64,000 bases of DNA, from the NCBI GenBank assembly GCA_019912425.1, contig JAIOIU010000080.1, positions 1-64,000 on the forward strand, given 5' to 3'. Each line of letters starts with the position of its first letter. Positions within the stretch are counted from its first letter, which is position 1. The position numbers and the translations under genes were made by a program. The notes under the pieces were generated by a model. It was not told the DNA's origin and did not search any database. It was given only the letters and a program-made list of their open reading frames with translations. Shown here in pieces: positions 26,109 through 39,702 of the stretch. This DNA comes from Candidatus Methylomirabilis tolerans. Its GTDB lineage: Bacteria; Methylomirabilota; Methylomirabilia; Methylomirabilales; Methylomirabilaceae.

Positions 26109-26336
26109 TGCCTACACATTGTGGTTCCTCTCTCGACCGTGTCAGAGTGGCGAGAGCCCTGTATGCCATCTGAATAAACAATCCGGTAGCCCTGCCCTAT
26201 AGAGGGCGTAGATCATGGTGGAACACGGGACAGGTAAACACTTGACATTCCGTGCAGGCAATCATATAGTCCATCCGCCACTCGAATTCAGAGTCGCGTT
26301 TCCGTTCACGTTCCATACAAGAAGGGTTCGAAAGAG

Positions 26337-27338
26337 ATGAAGAAACGTGACGCTGTCGTTGCCCTGTTGCCCCTGCTGGCTGTTGCTCTCCTCGTTGGAT
26401 GGGCCTGCAGTCGATTGAGTTCGCCGCCCCCCGGCTCTGAAGCTCTTCATGCCCAAGAGGCATCTACCGCGAGCACTGCCGCGCCTCGTCCTCAGTGGAC
26501 CGGTTTCCCGCCACACGCCAAGTACGTGGGGAGCGAGTCCTGTCTGACGTGTCACGAGAAGTCGACCCAGCGCTTCCACAAGACGAAGATGGGGCGCATC
26601 ATGTCTGTGAATCCCCGTACCCCTCAAGAGCAGCGTGGCTGTGAGTCCTGCCACGGCCCTGGAGGCCCGCACGTAGAGACGGAGGGGGGCGCAAAAGAGA
26701 CAATGATGACCTTCAAGAAGGGGGCAGAGCCGGTCGAGGCGCAGAATGCCACATGTGTGAACGGCTGTCACGAGAAGGGTGAGCACACCTTCTGGAAGGG
26801 GAGCACCCACGAGATGCGTGGCGTTGCCTGTGTCACCTGTCACAAGGTGATGGAGTCGGTGTCCGATCGATACAACCTGGCGAAGCCGACCGCCATCGAG
26901 GTCTGCTCCCAATGTCACCAGACCAGGCGGGCCCAGCTCCAGCGTAGCTCTCACATGCCGCTACGCGAGGGGAAAATCAGTTGCTCCGACTGCCACAACC
27001 CCCATGGAACCGTTACGCAGGCGATGCTCCGGGAAGATTCGGTCAATGAGAACTGCTTCAAGTGCCATGCCGAGAAGCGGGGACCGTTTCTCTGGGAACA
27101 TGCGCCTGTCACGGAAAGCTGTTCCAACTGCCATGAGCCGCACGGTTCTACGAACGCAAGGCTCCTAAAGGTCAGAGTTCCCCGCCTCTGTCAGCAGTGC
27201 CACATCGAGACCAGGCACCCAACCAACCCATACGATCCGACGACCGGCTCGAGGTTTGTCATCAACAGAGGCTGCGTCAACTGCCACCAGAAGATCCATG
27301 GATCGAACCATCCATCAGGATTCGCCTTCGTGAACTGA
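26337..27338 (+). CDS. mtrA: MtrA/DmsE-type decaheme c-type cytochrome
   Basis: 333 residues, exported through the signal-anchor segment VVALLPLLAVALLVGWAC. Ten heme c attachment sites: CLTCH, CESCH, CVNGCH (an unusual CX3CH), CVTCH, CSQCH, CSDCH, CFKCH, CSNCH, CQQCH and CVNCH. Length, even spacing and motif context (SCSDCHNPHG, SCSNCHEPHG) match the MtrA/PioA/DmsE family, whose members form a 10-heme wire inside an outer-membrane barrel and pass electrons between periplasm and cell surface. The barrel gene follows after 33 bases. The signal contains Cys (GWAC), so a lipid anchor is possible. No MtrC-like surface cytochrome gene is next to it. Confidence 0.92.
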   Translation: MKKRDAVVALLPLLAVALLVGWACSRLSSPPPGSEALHAQEASTASTAAPRPQWTGFPPHAKYVGSESCLTCHEKSTQRFHKTKMGRIMSVNPRTPQEQRGCESCHGPGGPHVETEGGAKETMMTFKKGAEPVEAQNATCVNGCHEKGEHTFWKGSTHEMRGVACVTCHKVMESVSDRYNLAKPTAIEVCSQCHQTRRAQLQRSSHMPLREGKISCSDCHNPHGTVTQAMLREDSVNENCFKCHAEKRGPFLWEHAPVTESCSNCHEPHGSTNARLLKVRVPRLCQQCHIETRHPTNPYDPTTGSRFVINRGCVNCHQKIHGSNHPSGFAFVN

Positions 27339-27371
27339 GGCGGGGATCTGCATTACGCGGAGGAACGGGCT

Positions 27372-29786
27372 ATGGAGGCAATCGACTGGACGAAACAGAT
27401 TGGCAAAGCGCTGCCGCTCGCCATAGCCCTGTTGCTGACTGTCGTGGCATCGGGTTATGCTGAAGAGGCCTCGCTTCAACAGCAGGAGGCACCCCCTTTA
27501 TGGGTGAGCTGGCTCAATAATCGGCTACCCTTTAACCTTGGCATCACGGGGATAGATATCGAGGGAGGGTATCGCGATATCGATGGCAATCGGAGTTCGG
27601 CCAAGTTCCAGGAGTATCGGGTACTCGAGGAAAGTCCTTTTCTGGACCATGTCCGACTCTCTCTTGAAACCAAAGATAAGAAACAATACGTCGAGTTCTC
27701 CGCAATTGATTCCTTTAAGCAAGATCAGAGCTACCTGTTCCGGGTCGGGAAGTACGGTGACTATGATCTGGAGATCTTCTGGGATCAGGTCCCGCACCAG
27801 TTGAGTACGACGGGACGGACCCTGTTTACTACCACGTACGATAACAACAACCCAAATCTGACTTTGCCGTCCGGTGTTGCCTCGACAGTTCAGGCCGCTA
27901 CTCCGGCCACAAGAGCCTCCGTGCTGGCAGGCTTCCTGGCCAATGCCACGCCGGTGGATCTCAGCTTCCTGACCTCCAAAGCGGGATTCGGGTTAAAGTA
28001 CAACCTGACAGATTCGTTGGATTTCGGTGTCCGCTATACCTTCACACAGAAGGACGGGACGATCCCTTTCGGCGCGGGCTTCAGCAGCCCAGGGGGTAAT
28101 ATCGTCGAGCTTCCGGCCCCACTCTTTAACCGGACTCACCAGATTGAGGTCAAGACGCAGTACGCTCGACCAGGTTGGAATGTCGGCCTCGGCTACACCG
28201 CCTCGATTTTCGACCAGAGCGTCGACAATATCACGTTCGACAATCCGCTGTCGGCGGCGAGCAGCGCGACCGCATCCGCGCTGGGACGAGCGACGATGGA
28301 TCCGAGCAATCAGGCGCATAACGTATTTCTATCGGGTGGTCTTTCGCTTCCGTACCGGACCAGGATCACGGGAAAGGTCTCTTATGGGTGGCGGCTCCAG
28401 GATGAATCGTTTGTCTCCCACACCATCAACCCGGCTCTGGCAGCCGATCCGCAATTGGCGCTCCCAAGAAACAGCTTGGATGGGGAGATCAGGACGACCC
28501 TCGTGACGCTCAACGGGACAAGCCGTCCGCTTGCCGCTTTGCCGCTGACGCTGTACGGGGGCTACCGCTTTTATGACTTCAATAATCGAACGCCTGAGAT
28601 TGTGTTTCCTACGCATACGGTCCGGGATACGTCGCTTACGGCCGAGACGCGGGTCACTGCGCCGTCTTCCTACACCAAGCATAATGCCCACCTGGACGCG
28701 GGTTATTCTCTTCTCAGCGACCTTCATTTCAAACTGGGCTACGAGTGGGAGCGATGGGACCGCGATTCGCAATACCGCGAGACACCGACCAGTGATGAGC
28801 ACTTCCTGAAGACCAGCGTTGATTTTACACCAGTCGACTGGCTGCTCTTCCGAGGTGCCTATCGCCGGAGCTGGCGCAATATCGACGAATATGTGACCCA
28901 GGCCCATGAGGCGCATGTCGTTTCCGACATCGAAGGGGAGGATCTGGGGCCAGGGGTGCCGAATCTCCAGGGTCAATCGATTCTGCTTCGGAAGTTCGAC
29001 GAAGCCGATCGGACCCGGGACCGGGTGGAAATCTTAGCATCAGTTACCCCCTTCGAGACGTTGAACTTTACGACCACCTATAGCCTGATTCGGGATGACT
29101 TTGACAAGTCCGGGCTCGGACTGCAGGAATCATGGGGGTGGAGCCTGGGTGGTGATTTGGCCTACAGTCCTTTCTCGTGGCTGTCGTTTTTTGTGAACTA
29201 CATGAGGGAGGAGTTCAAATACGATCAGCTCTCTCGGTCCAGGCCGGTCGTCAGCAATGTATCTACGGCGACCACACCGGCGGCAGGGTGTGCGTTCACG
29301 AATCCCACGGCTGCCGTCAGTAACGTCGTCTGCGATTTTTCTGATTTTAATTGGAGGAGCCTGAACAGAGACAAGGTTGATACTTATGGGGTGGGCACCG
29401 ACGTCGCCCTGATCCCCAAGCGCCTCAATTTTCGGCTGACCTACACCTTTTCGGATGCCGACACGATCATCAATTCATTTAACCCGGTGACGCCGACTAG
29501 TGGCACCGGAGCCCAGCAAGCGAGCGCGAAAGCCGTCCGCTATCCGGTGGCGAACACGAACCTTCATACCCTGATCGCCGCCCTTCGCTATAACGTGACC
29601 ACAAACTGGAGTCTTAAGGGTGAATACCGATTTGAGCGGTTTAAGGAGAAAGATTGGTCGACCGATACGATCGGGCAATCAGGCCTCACGAACTTACCGG
29701 CGACGACCGATACCTTCTTAGGCGCTCAGTTTCTCCAGAATTACGAAGCCCACATTGCAGCATTTACGCTTCGTTATCAGTTCTGA
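27372..29786 (+). CDS. mtrB: MtrB/PioB-family outer-membrane beta-barrel
   Basis: 804 residues with a signal peptide (ALPLAIALLLTVVASGYAEE). The rest is alternating amphipathic strands typical of a large porin (for example YNLTDSLDFGVRYTFTQKDG, GYRFYDFNNRT, LKGEYRFERFKEKDW), and the last residue is Phe after AFTLRYQ, the usual barrel-insertion signal. With the preceding decaheme gene it forms the porin-cytochrome pair known from metal-reducing and iron-oxidising bacteria. No N-terminal CXXC is seen; the only obvious Cys pair is in a probable loop (GCAFTNP ... VVCDFSD). A strong terminator follows. Confidence 0.9.
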   Translation: MEAIDWTKQIGKALPLAIALLLTVVASGYAEEASLQQQEAPPLWVSWLNNRLPFNLGITGIDIEGGYRDIDGNRSSAKFQEYRVLEESPFLDHVRLSLETKDKKQYVEFSAIDSFKQDQSYLFRVGKYGDYDLEIFWDQVPHQLSTTGRTLFTTTYDNNNPNLTLPSGVASTVQAATPATRASVLAGFLANATPVDLSFLTSKAGFGLKYNLTDSLDFGVRYTFTQKDGTIPFGAGFSSPGGNIVELPAPLFNRTHQIEVKTQYARPGWNVGLGYTASIFDQSVDNITFDNPLSAASSATASALGRATMDPSNQAHNVFLSGGLSLPYRTRITGKVSYGWRLQDESFVSHTINPALAADPQLALPRNSLDGEIRTTLVTLNGTSRPLAALPLTLYGGYRFYDFNNRTPEIVFPTHTVRDTSLTAETRVTAPSSYTKHNAHLDAGYSLLSDLHFKLGYEWERWDRDSQYRETPTSDEHFLKTSVDFTPVDWLLFRGAYRRSWRNIDEYVTQAHEAHVVSDIEGEDLGPGVPNLQGQSILLRKFDEADRTRDRVEILASVTPFETLNFTTTYSLIRDDFDKSGLGLQESWGWSLGGDLAYSPFSWLSFFVNYMREEFKYDQLSRSRPVVSNVSTATTPAAGCAFTNPTAAVSNVVCDFSDFNWRSLNRDKVDTYGVGTDVALIPKRLNFRLTYTFSDADTIINSFNPVTPTSGTGAQQASAKAVRYPVANTNLHTLIAALRYNVTTNWSLKGEYRFERFKEKDWSTDTIGQSGLTNLPATTDTFLGAQFLQNYEAHIAAFTLRYQF

Positions 29787-29847
29787 GTGAGGCCTCGGTT
29801 TCCGGCGGCTTGCCGGTGTGAGTACGTTGTGTACGAAAGAAGTACGG

Positions 29848-29873
29848 AAGCCAGCCTGACAGGCTGGCTTTTC
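29848..29873 (+). terminator. Rho-independent terminator after mtrAB
   Basis: Near-perfect stem AGCCAGCCTG / CAGGCTGGCT with a one-base loop, followed by TTTTC, 62 bases after the mtrB stop. It ends the mtrAB unit and separates it from the Rieske operon. Confidence 0.85.
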
Positions 29874-29901
29874 ACGTTCACGTCTGAAGGAGGGATTGGT
29901 C

Positions 29902-30351
29902 GTGTCACAGCAAGATGAACAGGTCGACCGCGGGCGACGTGCGGTGAATTGGCTTTTGGGGAGTTCCCTGGGCGTGCTCTTCGTATCCATGCTGTACCCG
30001 ATTGCGAAATACCTGATTCCCCCAAAGCTTGCCGAACCGACCACGTTCAGCGTAACCCTTCCCTGGAAGCTCGCGGAATTGAAGGCGAACTCCGGACAGA
30101 TCTTTCGCTTCAGGAGTCGGCCTGGTATCTTGGTGAAGACGGCGGCAGGCGAGTTGCGGGCTTTTTCTGCGGTCTGTACTCACCTGGAATGCACGGTACA
30201 ATATCGGGAAGAGCGGCAGGATATCTGGTGCGCATGCCACAATGGCGTGTACGACCTGAACGGGAAAAACGTCAGCGGTCCGCCGCCCCGGCCCCTGGAA
30301 GCTTTGAAGCTGAACGTCCGGGGAGATCAGGTCATTGTTATGAAAGGATAA
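29902..30351 (+). CDS. Rieske [2Fe-2S] protein of a bc-type complex
   Basis: 149 residues from GTG 29902 with GGAGGG eight or so bases upstream. A single N-terminal membrane anchor ([20 protein letters not shown]) carries a periplasmic Rieske domain. The cluster ligands are C92 and H94 (CTHLEC) and C110 and H113 (CACHNG); C97 and C112 can form the stabilising disulfide. It takes electrons from quinol bound to the partner cytochrome b, encoded 5 bases downstream. The usual CPCHGS box is CACHNG here, a mild deviation also seen in some b6f-like proteins. No dedicated cytochrome c1 or f gene follows; multiheme genes take that place. Confidence 0.92.
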
Positions 30352-30356
30352 GTCAG

Positions 30357-31445
30357 GTGACCGCGGATCGAATCACATCCTGGCTGGAAGAACGAATCGA
30401 CCTCTGGCCGCTTAAGCATCTCATCCAGAAGAAGGTCATCCCCGTCCATCGCCATACTGTCTGGTATTATTTCGGCGGGATGACGCTCTTTCTCTTCGGG
30501 ATTCAAGTGGCCACCGGGATTTTGCTGACCCTCTACTACCGGCCCAGCGGCGAAGAGGCGTATGAGAGCGTGCAATTCATCATGACCGACGTTCAATTCG
30601 GCTGGCTCGTTCGGTCGATTCATAGCTGGTCGGCGAACCTGATGGTGTTGACGATGATGGTCCACCTGTTCAGTGTCTACCTCACCCAGGGCTACCGAAA
30701 GCCGCGAGAACTGACATGGGTGACCGGAATGATGCTGTTCGGTGTGGTGCTGTTCTTCGGTTTCAGCGGGTATCTGCTGCCCTGGAATGTCCTATCGTAT
30801 TTTGCCACCAAGGTCGGGACCGAGATCGCCGGGCAATTCCCGTTTGTGGGTCATATACTGATGAGGCTCCTCCGCGGTGGTGACGAGGTAACCGGTGCGA
30901 CGGTTTCCCGTTTTTACGGGATCCATATTGCGATCCTACCAGCGCTCACGACCCTGATTCTCGGTCTTCATCTGTTCCTGGTCCAGAAGCAAGGGATGAG
31001 CATTCCCCCGACCGTGGAACGAGCCCGGGCGGGGCAGCCGCTTCCGACCATGCCGTTTGCTCCGAATTTTCTGCTCCGAGATCTCTTCGGCTGGTTTGTC
31101 ACCCTTGGGCTCTTGGCTGCCCTGGCCGCGTTGTCCCCGTGGGAATTAGGGCAAAAGGCGGATCCCTTTGCCCCGGCGCCTGCCGGCATCCGACCGGAAT
31201 GGTACTTCGTCTTCATGTTTCAGAGCCTAAAGTATATTCCGGCGAAGGTCGGTCCGTTTGACGGTGAGGTGTTAGGGGTGCTGGGTTTCACGCTGGGCGG
31301 GCTGTTCCTCTTGCTGGTCCCGTTTTTGGACAAACGGTCAGCCCTGGGAGAGCCCAGCCCGCGCTTCCGATCGATCGGGATCGCCATCATTGCGTACATC
31401 GTGATACTTACCGTACTTGGATATGTCGCGCCTGCCGTTAAATGA
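30357..31445 (+). CDS. Cytochrome b of a Rieske/cytochrome b complex
   Basis: 362 residues from GTG 30357; a longer in-frame extension overlaps the Rieske gene and is not used. Heme b ligands are H89 and H103 in one helix and H190 and H205 in another. Fourteen residues between the second pair is the spacing usual for b6-type proteins. The Cys that binds the extra heme c in plant-type b6 appears to be absent (YYFGG context). The C-terminal part holds the quinol-site motif PEWY ([10 protein letters not shown]), so b6- and subunit-IV-like halves are fused in one chain. It oxidises quinol together with the Rieske protein; electrons probably pass on to the multiheme cytochromes downstream. Confidence 0.92.
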
Positions 31446-31452
31446 GGCAATC

Positions 31453-32739
31453 GTGAAGATCGCACTGCGCATTGCATGTCTGGGTCTCCTCCTCACTGTG
31501 GCCGGCCTGATCCGCATCTCCTTCGCGGAAGCGGCGGATGCCTGCATTGACTGCCATATCGGATTACGAGAGGAGCGCTTCAACCGTCCGGCCGTCAAGA
31601 TTAAAGATGATTACCACCTGGCGCGGGGGCTGGGTTGTCAGAGCTGCCACGGCGGCGACCAGACCGCATTCGACAACAAGGCGCAGAGCCACAGCCCGGC
31701 GAAGGGGTTCCTGGGCAAACCGAAGCGTCACGAGATCCCTGAAACCTGTGGGAAGTGCCACAGTGACCCGAACTACATGCGGAAGTTTAATCCGTCAATT
31801 CGGACAGATCAGGTCAAGGAATACTATACCAGTGTCCACGGGAAAAGATTTCGCGAGGGGGATCAGAAGGTTGCCGTGTGCATCAGTTGCCATGACGTGC
31901 ATGCCATTCGCGCCGTGAAAGACCAGATGGCCTGGACCTATCCCACTAAGGTTGCTGAGACGTGTGGTCGATGCCACGGAAACGCTGACTACATGAAAGC
32001 GTACAAGATTTCCACCGATCAGCTCGACAAGTACAAGCAGAGCATTCATTACGAGATGTTGACCAAAAGGGCGGACCTTGCCTCTCCGACATGTAACAGT
32101 TGTCACGGTAGTCACGGCGCCGCCCCTCCAGGTATCGATTCAGTAGCGAATGTCTGCAGTCACTGTCATGTCGCGACGGCTGAGCTCTTCGCGAAGAGCG
32201 CGCATAAATCGGCATTCGCCGAGCTGGGGATGCCGGCGTGCGTGACATGTCATAGTAATCACGATATCACGAAACCGTCAGACGCAATGCTGGCCGGTGG
32301 AGAAGATACGCCTTGCGCTACTTGTCATGAAGCCGACTCTGCGCCCCTGAAGAAGGCCGCCGAATTGCGAACCATGATCGAGGGTCTTTCGAGCCGACTC
32401 GATCAGGCGGCGACAATCCTTACCAGGGCCGAGCACGCGGGCATGGAGATCGGCTCTCCACGATTCGAGCTGCTTGCGGCTAAAGAGTCCTTGATTAAGG
32501 CCAGAGCGGAAACTCATTCACTGCAGATAGAAAAGATAAAGACCGCCACCGACTCAGGGTTGATCGTCGCGCAGAAGAGCCTCGAGAGCGGCCAAGGCCT
32601 CCTGGCTGAGCTACAGTTCCGTCGCAAGGGGTTGGCGGTCTCCATGCTGGTCATTGTCGCGGTCCTGGTCGGCCTCTTCTTGAAGATCAGAGAGGTCGAT
32701 CGACGGAGAGGACCTGGCGGACAATACGACGGGCATTGA
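31453..32739 (+). CDS. Nonaheme c-type cytochrome, membrane anchored
   Basis: 428 residues from GTG 31453 (GAGG upstream, 7 bases after the cytochrome b stop). Signal peptide IACLGLLLTVAGLIRISFAEA, then nine CXXCH sites: CIDCH, CQSCH, CGKCH, CISCH, CGRCH, CNSCH, CSHCH, CVTCH, CATCH. A helical, heme-free region (about residues 300-395) and a C-terminal membrane segment (SMLVIVAVLVGLFLKI) follow. Its position right behind Rieske and cytochrome b suggests it replaces cytochrome c1/f as electron acceptor. Similar NapC/NrfB-like repeats (HGSHG, HDVHA, SNHD) suggest bis-His ligation. Confidence 0.9.
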   Translation: MKIALRIACLGLLLTVAGLIRISFAEAADACIDCHIGLREERFNRPAVKIKDDYHLARGLGCQSCHGGDQTAFDNKAQSHSPAKGFLGKPKRHEIPETCGKCHSDPNYMRKFNPSIRTDQVKEYYTSVHGKRFREGDQKVAVCISCHDVHAIRAVKDQMAWTYPTKVAETCGRCHGNADYMKAYKISTDQLDKYKQSIHYEMLTKRADLASPTCNSCHGSHGAAPPGIDSVANVCSHCHVATAELFAKSAHKSAFAELGMPACVTCHSNHDITKPSDAMLAGGEDTPCATCHEADSAPLKKAAELRTMIEGLSSRLDQAATILTRAEHAGMEIGSPRFELLAAKESLIKARAETHSLQIEKIKTATDSGLIVAQKSLESGQGLLAELQFRRKGLAVSMLVIVAVLVGLFLKIREVDRRRGPGGQYDGH

Positions 32740-32875
32740 CATGACTGAGCCGAGTGATTATAGTTCGGAGATAAGAGGAGCAGGGTGCATGTGTGCCCTA
32801 CCTCTGCGGAATACAGCCGTGACGCTCCGTCAGACTCTTACGATTCGAGAAGATTGCCCACGAAAAGGAGGAAGC

Positions 32876-33289
32876 ATGAAATCGTTGATCGGAAGGAGCG
32901 CGACGCTCGCTCTGGCGTGCCTCCTCATCGTAAACTTTACACCGACTCGAAGTTTCGCCCAGGCAAAGCCGAAGATCCCCCCTGCCTTCGCGTTCGAGCA
33001 GAAGACTAAGGATGAGGCAGGGAATCCGAGCCCAGGGAAGGTGACGTTCGATCATAAAACGCATATTGAAAAAGGCCAGAAGTGCCTCAACTGCCACGGC
33101 AAGGGTAAGCCTTTCAAGACCAAGGCTGGAACCTCGCCCGACCTTACCATGAAGGCCTACAATGAAGGCAAAGCGTGTGGCACATGCCATAACGGGAAGG
33201 TTGCATTCTCCACAAAGGAGATGGCTAACTGTCTGAAGTGCCATAAGGTTGGTGCGGCTCCACAGTCGAACGGCACCGAGACACAGTAA
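32876..33289 (+). CDS. Triheme c7-type cytochrome
   Basis: 137 residues from ATG 32876, with AAAGGAGG upstream. Signal peptide TLALACLLIVNFTPTRSFAQA. Three heme sites, CLNCH, CGTCH and CLKCH, plus isolated His (FDHKTHIEKGQ) that fit the bis-His ligands of the c3/c7 family. As a small soluble periplasmic carrier it could shuttle electrons between the inner-membrane complex and the outer-membrane conduit. The 136 bases before it hold no gene. Confidence 0.9.
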   Translation: MKSLIGRSATLALACLLIVNFTPTRSFAQAKPKIPPAFAFEQKTKDEAGNPSPGKVTFDHKTHIEKGQKCLNCHGKGKPFKTKAGTSPDLTMKAYNEGKACGTCHNGKVAFSTKEMANCLKCHKVGAAPQSNGTETQ

Positions 33290-33364
33290 CTTGGTTGGGG
33301 CGGGTGGCTGACTTGAGAGTCTGTCGATCCGCAATCGGCACTATCGCGCGCCCTGTTTGGCAAT

Positions 33365-35512
33365 GTGGGTAGCGATACTATTTCACGTCTGAGAATCAGG
33401 AGCGTGAGCTGCGGAAAGGTGGTCGGAGGCCTTTTCCTTGCCTGGCTTTTCTTTACGATAGTTCCGAATGCCTTTGCGGCTGCCGCGGAGTCGCCTGCTG
33501 CTCCTCACGAGTGCTCGGTCTGCCATAACGATCCTACCGACCTCGTTCAATCTGCGCACAAAGGGCTCGCCTGCGCCGAGTGTCATAGTGACATCTCGGA
33601 ATCGCCCCACACCGAAACGCCCCAGCCGGTCCGATGCACCTCATGCCATCGCAAGCTTCATGAGACGGTTTCGGAGAACGCTCATGCGGCACTGGGCGGC
33701 GGCCGTCCAAGCGCCAATTGCATCGCCTGTCATGGCAGCCACCAAATTCGAAAGACAGCCGCGGATGCCAACGGCATCTGCGCGTCATGTCATGGCGGCC
33801 AGGCCACGCAGATGGCGGTCGGCATTCATGCTGCCGGCCGGGTGGAGACAACCCGTAACCTGCCTACCTGCGTGACGTGCCACACGGCTCACGCCGTCAA
33901 GTCTCGACGCGACCCCCTGTCGCCTATCCACCGTTCACAGATTCACGAAACCTGCGCCCGCTGCCATGCTGATCCGAAAATCATCGCTCAGGAACGGATC
34001 GCGAGGCCGCGGGTTGTGGCGCTGTTCGAGCAGAGTATCCACGGACAGGCCATCCTGCAGAAAGGTAATCTCGCGGCCGCAACCTGCACCGATTGTCATG
34101 GTGCGCATGAGATCCGACGAGGCGTCGATCCTGCCTCGGCCATCTTCAAAGGACACGTGGCTGCGACCTGCAGCCGTTGTCACGGTAACGAGGCGGCGCA
34201 GTTCCGGGATAGCGTGCACGGCGGGGCCGTCTCACGCGGAATTTCGGCGGCGCCGACATGTACCGATTGTCACGGAGAGCATGGAATTACCGCCACTCGT
34301 GCTCCAGGATCACGGGTCGCGCCGCTGACGGTTTCCAAGACCTGCGCTGCCTGCCACGAGGCAACGCCGGTGGTTGAGGAGTTCGGCCTCGCGCCGCGTC
34401 GAGCCGGAACGTTCTTCGAGAGCTTCCACGGTCTGGCGGTGAGGGGCGGGTCGCCCGTTGTGGCCAACTGTGCAAGCTGCCACGGAACTCACAATATCCG
34501 ACCGTCCTCCGATCCTCGCTCCACCATCAGCCCGATGAACCTTTCGCGCACGTGTGGGCAGTGTCACCGAGGCGCCGGCATGCAATTGGCCGGCACCAGG
34601 ATTCATGTGGCCCCAGGATTCGGCGAACATCCGTGGGTGACCTTGATCCGACGGATCTATCTTGTGATCATCGTTGTCGTTGTCGGCGGGATGGGCCTGC
34701 ACAACGGGCTTGACTTCCTGGCGCATCTGCGAGAGCGTTGGCGGGCGGATGGGCAACAGGCGGCCAGACCCCCTGTGACTCCCGAGGTGGCGCGCCGCCT
34801 CTTTGAACGTTGGACAGTCAATGAGCGAATTCAGCATGTCATGCTGTTGACAACCTTTATGATCTTAGTTATCACAGGCTTTGCCCTGAAGTTTCCCGAT
34901 GCGTGGTGGGCGCGGCCGCTAGTCTGGATCGAAAGAGGGTATACCGTCAGAGCGTGGCTCCATCGAATCTCCGGTGTGCTCATGACGCTGGCGGCCATCT
35001 ACCATCTGGCGTATCTGTTCAGCACACAACGCGGCCGAACTCAGTTTCGATGCATGAAACCCGGGCGACGGGACTTGCATGAGGCGTGGGGAATGGTGGC
35101 CTTTAACCTGGGCCTGCGACCGCACCGGCCCCGCTTCGATCGTTTTACGTACGTGGAGAAGCTGGAGTACTGGGCGGTCATATGGGGCACTGCCGTGATG
35201 ACCGGTACCGGGTTTATGATGTGGTTTCAGACCGGGGTGCTGACGCGCTGGTCCCTTCTCGTCATTGACCTGGCAACCGTCGTCCATTATTACGAGGCCT
35301 GGCTTGCCACGCTGGCTATTGTCGTCTGGCACTTCTACAGCGTCATCTTCCGGCCCGATATCTACCCGATGAGTCTGGTCTGGCTGACGGGGACGATGAC
35401 GGGGGAACAGATGGCCAGGGATCATCCGGCCGAGTTGGATGAGATGCTTGCAGCAGAATCCGCGTCACATTCATTGCCGGGCGATGACATGATACCGCCG
35501 CAGGCCGGCTAA
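33365..35512 (+). CDS. 13-heme cytochrome c fused to a diheme-type cytochrome b
   Basis: 715 residues. After a signal/anchor (GGLFLAWLFFTIVPNAFAAA) come 13 CXXCH motifs to about residue 400 (CSVCH, CAECH, CTSCH, CIACH, CASCH, CVTCH, CARCH, CTDCH, CSRCH, CTDCH, CAACH, CASCH, CGQCH). Then follow about five membrane segments of a formate-dehydrogenase-gamma/thiosulfate-reductase-type cytochrome b, with candidate heme b His in ERIQHVMLL, WLHRISGV...YHLAYLF and VHYYEAWLATLAIVVWHFY. The layout implies direct exchange between membrane quinone and a long periplasmic heme wire in one polypeptide. The start is uncertain: GTG 33365 lacks a good ribosome site, and GTG 33404 has AGGAG too close. Confidence 0.88.
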   Translation: MGSDTISRLRIRSVSCGKVVGGLFLAWLFFTIVPNAFAAAAESPAAPHECSVCHNDPTDLVQSAHKGLACAECHSDISESPHTETPQPVRCTSCHRKLHETVSENAHAALGGGRPSANCIACHGSHQIRKTAADANGICASCHGGQATQMAVGIHAAGRVETTRNLPTCVTCHTAHAVKSRRDPLSPIHRSQIHETCARCHADPKIIAQERIARPRVVALFEQSIHGQAILQKGNLAAATCTDCHGAHEIRRGVDPASAIFKGHVAATCSRCHGNEAAQFRDSVHGGAVSRGISAAPTCTDCHGEHGITATRAPGSRVAPLTVSKTCAACHEATPVVEEFGLAPRRAGTFFESFHGLAVRGGSPVVANCASCHGTHNIRPSSDPRSTISPMNLSRTCGQCHRGAGMQLAGTRIHVAPGFGEHPWVTLIRRIYLVIIVVVVGGMGLHNGLDFLAHLRERWRADGQQAARPPVTPEVARRLFERWTVNERIQHVMLLTTFMILVITGFALKFPDAWWARPLVWIERGYTVRAWLHRISGVLMTLAAIYHLAYLFSTQRGRTQFRCMKPGRRDLHEAWGMVAFNLGLRPHRPRFDRFTYVEKLEYWAVIWGTAVMTGTGFMMWFQTGVLTRWSLLVIDLATVVHYYEAWLATLAIVVWHFYSVIFRPDIYPMSLVWLTGTMTGEQMARDHPAELDEMLAAESASHSLPGDDMIPPQAG

Positions 35513-35526
35513 GGTGAGAAGAACCG

Positions 35527-37722
35527 ATGGCTGAACAACCGCCTGTTCGGCGCCGTGGCTTGCGCATCCTCCTGATTGCCCTGGCGACCGGCATAGTCGT
35601 TGGAGGTCTCGCGCTGGGTGGACTCTATCGCCTTAGTTCGAGCCCGGCCTTATGTAATTCCTGCCATATTATGAAACCGTATGTTGAGGCCTGGAGGAGC
35701 TCTAAGCATAGCAACGTCACGTGCATCGATTGCCATTATCCTCCCGAGCTTCGAGGCACCATATGGGTCAAGTACCAGGCGCTTTCCCAGGTGGCGAAGT
35801 GGGCGACGCAGACCTACAGCTCGAAGCCGTTCGCCGAGGTTGAGGATGCAAGTTGTCTTCGCTCAGGGTGTCATACGAGTCGGCTGCTGGAAGGTACGGT
35901 CACCTTCAAGCGGGGGATCATCTTTGACCACGGCCCGCACCTGAAAGAGGAACGCCGGGGGCGGCAGCTTCGATGCACAAGCTGTCACTCTCAGATCGTA
36001 GTGGGGACGCACATCGAGGTGACCACGACCACCTGTTACCTCTGTCACTTTAAGGGGATGAAGACATCGCGGGAATTTCACCCTCTTGGCGGTTGTACGG
36101 TCTGCCACACAGCGCCAAAGGGGGACATCAAGATGGGGACCATCGCCTTCAACCACGAGGTGATGGTAAAACGAAATGTCGGATGCGAGAAATGCCACCT
36201 CAACGTGGTTGAGGGCAGCGGTCAGGCGCCGAAAGAGCGCTGCTATACCTGTCACAACCAGCCAGAGAAGCTTCAGAAGTACGCCGACACACCATTCATG
36301 CACGAATTCCACGTGGCCGGTCATCATATCGAGTGTACCCGTTGCCACAGCGAGATCAGGCACAAACTCCCGCCCCCCATCGGCTTATCCCTGAGCGGGT
36401 TATTGCAATGGTTATCAGAACCCTCGAGTGCCGAGGCTGCCGAGAGCAATGCCCAACTCCCGCCGAAGCGCCTCTTTCAGTCGCCGGCGGTGAAGATGCC
36501 GGAGGCGCACCCTGCGACTCGGGATCGAGGGCTCGATTGCAAAGCCTGCCATCAGGCTACTCACCAGGGAGTCCTCGAGATGTACGTCGGTATGGGAGGG
36601 AAGGGGACGCCGATGATCCCCGGCCACATGTTTCAGGTCAGGGTAGAGTGCGTAGCCTGTCATGTGGAGCCCGGGAAGGACAAGGCCCTGGCGACATTCG
36701 GTGGACAAACATTCAGACCATCCGAACGCGCCTGTCTGGGCTGCCACGACACGCGATATCAGGGAATGCTGGAACGCTGGAGGCAGACCATCACGACCAT
36801 GCTTACGGCGGTCAATGCAAAGCTCCTGTCAACAGAGCAGACATTGCACACGACCGTTCGGACTCACCCGCAGTTTGCGAAGTCCTGGAAGTTGGTCACT
36901 AATGCGCGACACAATGTGGAATTCGTCACGAATGGAAAGGGCGTTCACAACGTCTTCTTCGCCGCCGATCTTCTGAAGGTCGCGGACGGGTACTTGGATC
37001 AGTCGATGGCGATCCTTGGACAGTCGCCTCTAAGAACCACAGAAGAGACCCTCGTTCGTGGAGGCTATTGCGCGGTGCTGTGTCACAATCAACTGGGAGT
37101 GAAGGCACCGGAGGAGGTAAAATTTGGGGCTGAGACAATCCCGCATGTCCGCCACGTGACTGAGTTCGGCGTCACATGCACGGCATGTCACTCGGCCGAG
37201 CGACACAAGGCGGTGACCGCCACAAAGGCGACTTGCTTAAGCTGTCATCACAGCGCGGGGAATGATAACGAGCGGTGCATCGCCTGTCACACGCTCCAGA
37301 ACGCCTTCTTTTCTGGTACGATTACGGTTGAGGCGGTTGAGCCGACCCCTAGCGGCCACGCAGAGCTGACGGACTGTGTGGGATGCCACAATGTCCAGAA
37401 GCAGCATTCCAGGCAAGCGGTGGCAGCGCAGTGCCTGGGCTGCCATGACATGACGTCCGTCAAGGTGTTCACGCAGTGGCGGAAAGATATCGGTCAAGGC
37501 CTGGAAGAGGCCATGCGCCTCCTGAGGAAAGGGGAGTCCGTCCTGCGCCATGCTCCTCAAGACCCAAAGGCATCTGAGGCGCGCCTTCTCCTTCAGGCGG
37601 CGAAACGGGATCTCGATCTAGTCGTCAAGGCTGGGGGAATTCACAATCCAGAGCTTGCGAAGGCGATTTTGGTGAAGGTCAAGAAGTCGACCGAGGGCGC
37701 CATGCGCCTCTTGAATCGGTAA
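35527..37722 (+). CDS. Large NapC/NrfH-anchored multiheme cytochrome c (about 18 hemes)
   Basis: 731 residues, ATG 35527, 14 bases after the previous stop. An uncleaved N-terminal membrane helix (LLIALATGIVVGGLALGGLY) followed directly by ALCNSCHIMKP is the NapC/NrfH quinol-dehydrogenase layout. I count 16 CXXCH sites plus two non-standard ones, CLRSGCH (CX4CH) and CAVLCH (CX3CH). Between hemes 11 and 12 and at the C terminus lie heme-free helical regions. The protein should face the periplasm, anchored in the inner membrane, and take electrons from quinol or the neighbouring complex. The size is well beyond ordinary NapC (about 200 residues). Confidence 0.88.
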   Translation: MAEQPPVRRRGLRILLIALATGIVVGGLALGGLYRLSSSPALCNSCHIMKPYVEAWRSSKHSNVTCIDCHYPPELRGTIWVKYQALSQVAKWATQTYSSKPFAEVEDASCLRSGCHTSRLLEGTVTFKRGIIFDHGPHLKEERRGRQLRCTSCHSQIVVGTHIEVTTTTCYLCHFKGMKTSREFHPLGGCTVCHTAPKGDIKMGTIAFNHEVMVKRNVGCEKCHLNVVEGSGQAPKERCYTCHNQPEKLQKYADTPFMHEFHVAGHHIECTRCHSEIRHKLPPPIGLSLSGLLQWLSEPSSAEAAESNAQLPPKRLFQSPAVKMPEAHPATRDRGLDCKACHQATHQGVLEMYVGMGGKGTPMIPGHMFQVRVECVACHVEPGKDKALATFGGQTFRPSERACLGCHDTRYQGMLERWRQTITTMLTAVNAKLLSTEQTLHTTVRTHPQFAKSWKLVTNARHNVEFVTNGKGVHNVFFAADLLKVADGYLDQSMAILGQSPLRTTEETLVRGGYCAVLCHNQLGVKAPEEVKFGAETIPHVRHVTEFGVTCTACHSAERHKAVTATKATCLSCHHSAGNDNERCIACHTLQNAFFSGTITVEAVEPTPSGHAELTDCVGCHNVQKQHSRQAVAAQCLGCHDMTSVKVFTQWRKDIGQGLEEAMRLLRKGESVLRHAPQDPKASEARLLLQAAKRDLDLVVKAGGIHNPELAKAILVKVKKSTEGAMRLLNR

Positions 37723-37780
37723 GCACCTACGTCAGATTTCGAATCGAGCGATATCAAACAGAGTCAACCCAGAGAGGACA

Positions 37781-38359
37781 ATGGAAGAACAACGATCATC
37801 CGGTAAGATACGCCTTATCATAATGCTGGGCAGCACGTTGGCCGTAGGATTTCTTCTTGGGTACCTGGCTTCAGCCTTCGTTCCGCTCGTCCCGCGGACA
37901 CAATCGCCAGCCGTGTCGCCGTCTGCCGCTCCTGGTCCTAAGCTTTCACCCTCCGAGATTGATTCGGCCTTAAAGGCGGCGCACGCCTCGCTCGATGCCG
38001 GCGACCTCCAAGCCGCCTGGGAGAAATATCATCAGATCCTGCTCACTGATAGGAATCATATTGAGGCGCTGACGCACCTCGGAGTGATCTTGACGCAGAG
38101 CAATCAGCCGGATGAGGCCATCAAGCTGTACGATCGAGCGTTGAGCCTGAACCCTCAGTACGCCCATGCTCTGTTCGATAAGGGACAGGCTTTAAAAGAG
38201 AAGGGGGATACGAAGGAGGCTACTGAGGCGTTCCGACGGTTTCTCGCCCTGGTACCGCCGGACTCCGACGATGCCAAGCGGGTCAAAGGATGGATAGCAG
38301 AGATGGGTAACTCCGGTCGTTCCGTACGGAATAAAGGCGGTGAGTCTGAGAAAAAGTAG
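37781..38359 (+). CDS. Membrane-anchored TPR protein
   Basis: 192 residues, ATG 37781 after GAGAGGAC. One membrane helix (IIMLGSTLAVGFLLGYLASA, residues about 13-32), a Pro/Ser-rich linker, then about three tetratricopeptide repeats (LDAGDLQAAWEKYHQILLTD, QSNQPDEAIKLYDRALSLNP, EKGDTKEATEAFRRFLALVP). The arrangement resembles the periplasmic TPR part of CcmI/NrfG, which hold apocytochromes during heme attachment, so a cluster-specific maturation or assembly role is plausible, but this is inferred from location. Confidence 0.8.
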   Translation: MEEQRSSGKIRLIIMLGSTLAVGFLLGYLASAFVPLVPRTQSPAVSPSAAPGPKLSPSEIDSALKAAHASLDAGDLQAAWEKYHQILLTDRNHIEALTHLGVILTQSNQPDEAIKLYDRALSLNPQYAHALFDKGQALKEKGDTKEATEAFRRFLALVPPDSDDAKRVKGWIAEMGNSGRSVRNKGGESEKK

Positions 38360-38814: not shown

Positions 38815-39702
38815 ATGTCCAAGAAGCATCCCGTGATTGTAGTCACCGGTTCCTCCGGTGCGGGCACAACGACTGTAAAGCGTTCTTTCGAGCAGATCTT
38901 CCGTCGAGAAAACATCACAGCGGCGATACTGGAGGGCGATAGCTTTCACAATGTGACACGCGCCCAATTCGCCGCCGCCGTCAGACTGGCCGAGGAGAAT
39001 AGGCAGCATCCTCCCAGTCATTTCGGACCGGAATGCAACGATTTCGACAAGATCGAGGAAACCTTTCGCCGGTACGGTGAGGAGGGCATGTGTCAGCGCC
39101 GCTTCTACATCCACAGCGACGCTGAGGCGGCTGAATTTAACGCCAAGCTGGGCTCCAGCCTGAAGCCGGGCGAATTTACTCCGTGGGAACCCATCCCCGA
39201 GAACTCCGATGTTCTGTTCTACGAGGGACTGCACGGTGGGGTGGTGACGGACAAGGTCAATATTGCCAAGCATGTCGATCTGATGATCGGCGTTGTTCCC
39301 ATCGTCAACCTCGAATGGATCCAGAAAATTCATCGCGATACCGCGAAGCGCGGCTACTCGGCCGAGGCCGTCACGCAGACCATACTGCGACGTATGGCCG
39401 ATTACGTGGAATATATCTGCCCACAGTTTTCCTATACAGACATCAATTTCCAGCGCGTGTCCACGGTAGATACTTCCAATCCATTCGTGGCGCGCGACAT
39501 CCCGACGCTGGACGAGAGCTTCGTCGTCATCCGCTTCAGCAACCAGGAGAAGGCCGACTTTCAGTACCTGCTGTCCATGATCAAGGACTCATTCATGTCG
39601 CGCCGCAATACCATCGTTGTGCCGGGCGGCAAGATGGATTTCGCGATGCAGTTGATCCTGACGCCGCTGATCAAGGACCTGATCACCATGCGCAACGCAT
39701 AA
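38815..39702 (+). CDS. prkB: Phosphoribulokinase
   Basis: 295 residues, ATG 38815 after AAAGGGGGAG. Converts ribulose-5-phosphate and ATP to ribulose-1,5-bisphosphate, the step unique to the Calvin cycle. P-loop GSSGAGTTT (about residues 12-20), ILEGDSFHNVTRAQF, SHFGPECNDFD, VLFYEGLHGGV and NFQRVSTVDTSNPF match the proteobacterial-type (octameric) enzyme. The rest of the cycle, including Rubisco, is not in this window, so the gene stands alone between the cytochrome cluster and a large repeat. Its presence supports autotrophic CO2 fixation, as reported for NC10 methane oxidisers. Confidence 0.95.
   Translation: MSKKHPVIVVTGSSGAGTTTVKRSFEQIFRRENITAAILEGDSFHNVTRAQFAAAVRLAEENRQHPPSHFGPECNDFDKIEETFRRYGEEGMCQRRFYIHSDAEAAEFNAKLGSSLKPGEFTPWEPIPENSDVLFYEGLHGGVVTDKVNIAKHVDLMIGVVPIVNLEWIQKIHRDTAKRGYSAEAVTQTILRRMADYVEYICPQFSYTDINFQRVSTVDTSNPFVARDIPTLDESFVVIRFSNQEKADFQYLLSMIKDSFMSRRNTIVVPGGKMDFAMQLILTPLIKDLITMRNA

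Follow-up and report, generated by a model that had tools for sequence, protein, structure and literature searches.

Nine genes at 26337-38359 of a 64,000-nucleotide stretch of the Candidatus Methylomirabilis tolerans genome (the window, meaning this whole stretch) probably encode a route across both membranes, in which a menaquinol-oxidising Q-cycle Rieske/cytochrome b complex, with multiheme cytochromes standing in for cytochrome c1, would feed an MtrAB-type conduit with net flow outward. Synteny within the genus and phylum-wide co-occurrence with mtrAB make such a route the best reading of the block. The original prediction of an extracellular electron route held as far as the missing c1-type partner, the multihemes in its stead and the link to mtrAB are concerned; we infer the transfer itself and its direction, as well as the formation of the complex, the relay through a c7-type cytochrome, the extracellular end and what the TPR protein does.

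Gene content of the block and its outer-membrane pair

The ORF listing of the window confirmed the predicted contiguous run, with all nine ORFs on the + strand and intergenic spacing from a 29-base overlap up to 136 bases. The features are as follows, with the evidence for each in brackets.

26242..26270, +: promoter-like site TTGACA-17-TATAGT upstream of mtrA (consensus scan, 11/12 matches; a consensus match only, to a consensus that may not fit NC10 promoters)
26337..27338, +: mtrA-like periplasmic decaheme cytochrome (TIGR03508, 6r2q_A)
27372..29786, +: mtrB-like 26-stranded outer-membrane barrel (PF11854, TIGR03509, 6r2q_B)
29848..29870, +: hairpin in the mtrB-Rieske gap (longer version in relatives, z-scores)
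29896..30351, +: Rieske [2Fe-2S] protein with one N-terminal membrane helix (PF00355, motif comparison, hydropathy)
30357..31445, +: cytochrome b of the one-piece b6/subunit-IV type (Pfam, structure-sequence match, ligand alignment)
31417..32739, +: nonaheme cytochrome c with C-terminal helical domain and membrane helix (heme count, model, hydropathy)
32876..33289, +: triheme c7-type periplasmic cytochrome (PF14522, E=2e-15; TIGR04257, 63 bits, cut-off 40)
33365..35512, +: 13-heme cytochrome c fused to a b561-type membrane domain (PF01292, heme count)
35527..37722, +: NapC/NirT-type membrane-anchored 18-heme cytochrome (PF03264, heme count)
37781..38359, +: membrane-anchored TPR protein (PF13432 and other TPR families)

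The longest ORF of the triheme gene starts at 32741, with a probable start at 32876; the Rieske gene has a probable start at 29902 (GTG), judged by spacing to the ribosome-binding site. Pfam and NCBIfam matches (MtrA/DmsE, MtrB/PioB, Rieske, cytochrome b, c7/c3, b561, NapC/NirT) and heme-site counts upheld the kinds of protein predicted for the nine genes, and the predicted total of about 53 heme c sites came to exactly 53 (50 CXXCH and 3 CX3-4CH). These are distributed over mtrA (9 CXXCH and 1 CX3CH), the nonaheme protein (9), the triheme protein (3), the 13-heme/b protein (13) and the NapC-type protein (16 CXXCH, 1 CX4CH and 1 CX3CH). The window contains 55 occurrences of the heme pattern versus 3.4 +/- 1.9 in shuffled sequence, and the whole genome 270 versus 124 for a reversed-pattern control, so that these 12 kb hold roughly one third of the excess heme-c motifs of the genome. 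In the nearest named Ca. Methylomirabilis record the block is 99-100% identical, with the cytochrome b at 99%.

The mtrA and mtrB genes are genuine, and both parts of an MtrAB-type porin-cytochrome conduit are present. The mtrA product scores 271 bits against the DmsE/MtrA subfamily model TIGR03508 (cut-off 192), and among solved structures it is closest to MtrA of 6R2Q (6r2q_A, E=4.8e-73), a match for which the molecule label printed in the table is at odds with the entry 6R2Q. The product of mtrB, single-copy in the genome, scores 389 bits against PF11854 (MtrB/PioB; cut-off 23) and 310 bits against TIGR03509 (cut-off 240), and by sequence it matches 6r2q_B among solved structures (E=2.2e-18). 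Its AlphaFold2 model (ten sequences, mean pLDDT 66) has 26 long strands by count, and the top fold match of this model was again 6r2q_B (E=1.1e-33, TM (target) 0.80), with the next match far behind. Adjacent genes for an MtrA-family decaheme cytochrome and a 26-strand MtrB-family barrel are likewise found in MtrAB, MtoAB, PioAB and DmsEF (6R2Q; PMC12016527).

Two side observations concern this pair. The CX3CH site of the window's mtrA, beside nine canonical sites, may be unmatured, which would leave a gap in the ten-heme wire; ten canonical CXXCH are present in some congeners (L128, L129, L134). One Methylomirabilis genome (G026; L126 1958-8942) carries two tandem mtrAB pairs, the outer of which is only 30-50% identical to that of the window.

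Unlike those known modules, the block is without an MtrC, PioC or MtoD partner. No MtrC/OmcA homologue exceeded the cut-off genome-wide (TIGR03507, best 19.6 bits versus 209), and neither an MtoD monoheme nor a PioC HiPIP gene was seen among the nine genes. The two-subunit iron-oxidising MtoAB conduit that Sideroxydans expresses on magnetite (PMC12016527) likewise lacks an MtrC-type surface cytochrome, and this lends some weight to a rather unlikely alternative, in which electrons flow inward. MtrAB would then take them from Fe(II), Mn(II), a mineral or a partner cell, in the manner of MtoAB or PioAB; the multihemes would pass them to periplasmic acceptors, and a reversed Rieske/b complex or the b561 domain would drive them uphill into menaquinone for CO2 fixation. 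A phosphoribulokinase-like gene after the block (38815-39702, by eye) would fit such a use, but the absence of a HiPIP or MtoD-type gene from the block speaks against it.

The Rieske/cytochrome b pair and its putative multiheme partners

The Rieske cluster motif reads CTHLEC...CACHNGVYD, with all four ligands present and CACHNG where others read CPCHGS. The tuning serine is absent from essentially all members of this Rieske family (the exception being a distant outlier, L053), whereas the two other Rieske proteins of the genome (contigs C17 and C97) have CPCHGS and keep it; mutating this serine in the yeast Rieske protein lowers its potential by ~130 mV (PMC12954380). Among solved structures the cytochrome b matches b6 (E=6.7e-64), with its C-terminal part aligning to subunit IV, and the Rieske protein aligns to that of b6f. 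The four heme-b His ligands and PEWY are all present, and across loci from about ten phyla conservation extends to the heme ligands and almost fully to PEWY. By these four His, PEWY and the Rieske Cys/His ligands, the pair is assigned to the Rieske/cytochrome b (bc) superfamily. It differs from cytochromes b6f and bc1 in lacking cytochrome f and c1, neither of which is encoded in the block, where the nonaheme protein takes the third position, and in lacking the heme-cn cysteine (b6 Cys35), which is Tyr39 here and Tyr in 55/60 family members with a residue in that column.

The genome contains futalosine-pathway menaquinone genes (two genes of MqnA/MqnD type), and COQ7 was not found in it, which together point to menaquinone as the quinone. 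The pair would accordingly be read as a low-potential menaquinol complex, and a Q-cycle complex with menaquinone and a predicted low-potential Rieske protein would suit quinol oxidation better than the reverse flow that inward transfer requires.

The extHIJKLMNOPQS/GSU2937-2930 cluster of Geobacter (PMC5877670, PMC2825233) likewise combines Rieske, cytochrome b, multihemes and a porin-like protein. However, its ExtI is, per paper, not an MtrB relative, whereas the barrel of the block is MtrB-family, and its ExtP is a short b6 with a separate ExtQ, whereas the cytochrome b of the block is in one piece and scores 214.9 bits against the ExtP model, under the cut-off of 290; the other two cytochromes b of the genome score closer to ExtP. 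The anammox complexes kuste4569-4574 and kustd1480-1485 (PMC12954380) share a Rieske/b core with a multiheme c-type partner, but they have a high-potential Rieske protein with the serine, and NAD(P) oxidoreductase subunits, in place of the serine-free Rieske and the mtrAB of the block.

Non-canonical bc1 complexes, at least two of them, were listed for Methylomirabilis genomes in a bioreactor study (PMC8906906). In the present genome, contig C97 (L124 5875-10922) encodes a second Rieske/b6/subunit-IV complex with a 908-residue cytochrome that has eight CXXCH sites in class I-type domains, and contig C17 (L123 3296-6394) encodes a third Rieske/b complex with a tetraheme FixO-like cytochrome.

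The Rieske protein, cytochrome b and membrane-anchored nonaheme cytochrome form a widespread module, found in about ten phyla, and in nearly all loci the nonaheme gene stands before or after the Rieske/b pair. The nonaheme protein has a C-terminal membrane helix by hydropathy, and its model is confident, with a mean pLDDT of 89. It has no relatives by sequence among solved structures and none in the plasmid collection at E<=1e-5. Seven distal His are invariant in 36 sequences, an eighth is kept in 32, and the ninth column is mostly Met/His; no CXXCK is present. With a candidate second ligand for each of the nine hemes and no CXXCK, the protein looks like a wire and not an enzyme, and we interpret it as a conductor of electrons that occupies the cytochrome c1 position. 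Since its model weakly resembles the hydroxylamine oxidoreductase/NrfA group in fold (E=0.04), a catalytic heme was considered; the candidate second ligand at each heme disfavours it. In loci outside the genus (L134 17198-18484 and others) a tetraheme protein with four class I cytochrome c domains adjoins the nonaheme gene; it is absent from the block of the window.

Outside the genus, separate genes often encode the 13-heme protein and its b561 partner, and likewise the halves of the NapC-type 18-heme protein; their fusion here suggests that the fused parts act together. CbcL, MtoC and MtrH (PMC6295460) also combine an N-terminal multiheme domain with a b-type quinone domain in one protein, in some cases encoded beside mtrAB, and the protein of the block, with 13 hemes and a b561/formate-dehydrogenase-gamma-type domain, is likened to them by arrangement. 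No feature distinguishes CbcL of an Fe(III) reducer from MtoC of Fe(II) oxidisers (PMC6295460), a point that inward transfer can also claim. Near the core, two other genomes of the class encode proteins with 25-26 CXXCH (L140 586-2544, L142 3-1865).

Conservation of the block and linkage of its halves

The original prediction called for a search for this gene order in other NC10 genomes, and the block proved to be kept in the genus members with mtrB. In the Methylomirabilis loci read, one of them in a one-contig genome, the order mtrA-mtrB-Rieske-b-nonaheme-c7-13heme/b is maintained on the same strand; one locus carries a 7 kb insertion between the halves, and one has tandem mtrAB copies. The TPR gene is in the block in most of these loci. 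Several Methylomirabilis genomes have no NapC-type gene in the block, and the gene is thus optional; this is also what can be said for a chance neighbourhood or a decaying, functionless island, the block then not being fixed. We hold that explanation to be extremely improbable in view of intact frames, high identity across the genus, invariant ligands and the co-occurrence described below.

Among the 53 Methylomirabilota genomes at least 90% complete, 23 have both MtrB and the nonaheme protein, 26 have neither and 2+2 have a single one (Fisher's exact test, p=1.3e-10); outside the genus the corresponding counts are 15, 25 and 2+2 (p=7e-8). The p-values exaggerate how strong the association is, since related genomes do not count as independent samples, but the pattern holds in several families. 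One part occurs without the other in 12/95 genomes of the phylum and in 4/53 of the good ones. In other orders, mtrAB is found on either side of the core at distances of up to about 20 kb. Some Acidobacteriota, one Rokubacterium and one Zixibacterium also have mtrB no more than about 10 kb from the core. Loci with mtrB near the core are scattered over the cytochrome b tree; as contigs are truncated, we make no claim of independent origins.

The core also occurs in many loci without mtrB nearby, so its partner is not always MtrAB. This suits a further alternative, in which the Rieske/b-multiheme module feeds nitrogen-oxide or other soluble reductases in the periplasm and mtrAB works separately, for instance with a soluble acceptor in the manner of DmsEF. 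The mtrA product falls in the DmsE subfamily model, the Rieske/b of Caldithrix sits in a nitrate-reductase locus (PMC5317091), a hairpin divides the two halves of the block, and the weak hydroxylamine oxidoreductase/NrfA matches of the nonaheme model (E=0.04) can be read in the same sense. Tight co-occurrence and synteny with MtrB, the lack of a reductase gene in the block and a nonaheme protein that by sequence has no open heme make this alternative quite unlikely.

The hairpin (29848-29870, followed by T residues) lies in the 109 bp mtrB-Rieske gap (29787-29895). It is kept across Methylomirabilis (L125, L127, L128, L130, L131), and relatives carry an extended form that mostly has a second hairpin ahead of it and TTTT behind it. 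Its z-score is -1.4 in the window and from -0.2 to -6.0 in relatives, with three compensated pairs. It has no Rfam family, and the automatic terminator scan passed over it, there being only four T after it; it was spotted by eye and then tested. The element resembles a partial terminator or an mRNA-stability element. With only about 25 bases from the hairpin to the Rieske start, a promoter after it is unlikely, and transcription of the Rieske half probably reads through. A conserved hairpin at this point may mean that mtrAB and the Rieske half are unequally expressed.

Proposed electron route and its significance

In the outward route that we favour, the Rieske protein, cytochrome b and nonaheme protein would form a Q-cycle menaquinol oxidoreductase in the cytoplasmic membrane, with the membrane-anchored nonaheme protein substituting for cytochrome c1. 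Electrons would pass from the nonaheme protein to the triheme c7 carrier, on to MtrA within the MtrB barrel, and to the outside. The 13-heme/b561 protein would provide a second quinone-reactive entry, CbcL/MtoC-like, that bypasses the Q-cycle and serves low-potential acceptors, and the NapC-type 18-heme protein an optional third. In Geobacter, CbcL and other gates divide the potential range. The TPR protein would aid assembly, being a possible assembly factor. Under nitrite shortage, the net flow would most likely discharge electrons from menaquinol onto an acceptor outside the cell, and protons would be pumped if the potential of that acceptor were sufficiently high.

Known MtrAB-type modules have CymA alone on the quinone side, where the block has a Rieske/b-multiheme complex. 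We tentatively raise the possibility of an electrogenic Mtr pathway, in which a Q-cycle Rieske/b complex coupled directly to MtrAB would let extracellular transfer conserve energy at the quinol step, with the b561 bypass as a second gear; the CymA-based route, in contrast, conserves no energy at this step.

In several bacteria mtrAB is known to cluster with genes for multiheme/b-type quinone proteins (PMC6295460). A Baikal MAG study found mtrA in some Methylomirabilota (PMC10386581), and a survey of mtrCAB did not name NC10 (PMC8805035). A stable-isotope study reported labelling of Methylomirabilis with methane and nitrate and did not report labelling with methane and ferrihydrite (PMC12366373); searches of the open-access literature turned up no direct evidence of iron reduction by Methylomirabilis. 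We found no description of the nine-gene operon in that literature, which bears out the predicted novelty of the gene order in part, the parts and the principle being already known. What appears to be undescribed is the direct joining of a quinol-oxidising complex to MtrAB in these bacteria.

The proposed route, if correct, would make Methylomirabilis and many Rokubacteria candidates for electron exchange with the outside, with a bearing on iron- and manganese-linked methane oxidation and on partnerships in nitrite-dependent methane-oxidising communities. The MtrB and nonaheme pair is a marker for screening environmental genomes. The Mtr-type route would gain an energy-conserving entry complex, and, were the pathway electrogenic, nitrite-dependent methanotrophs could oxidise methane or dispose of electrons without nitrite.
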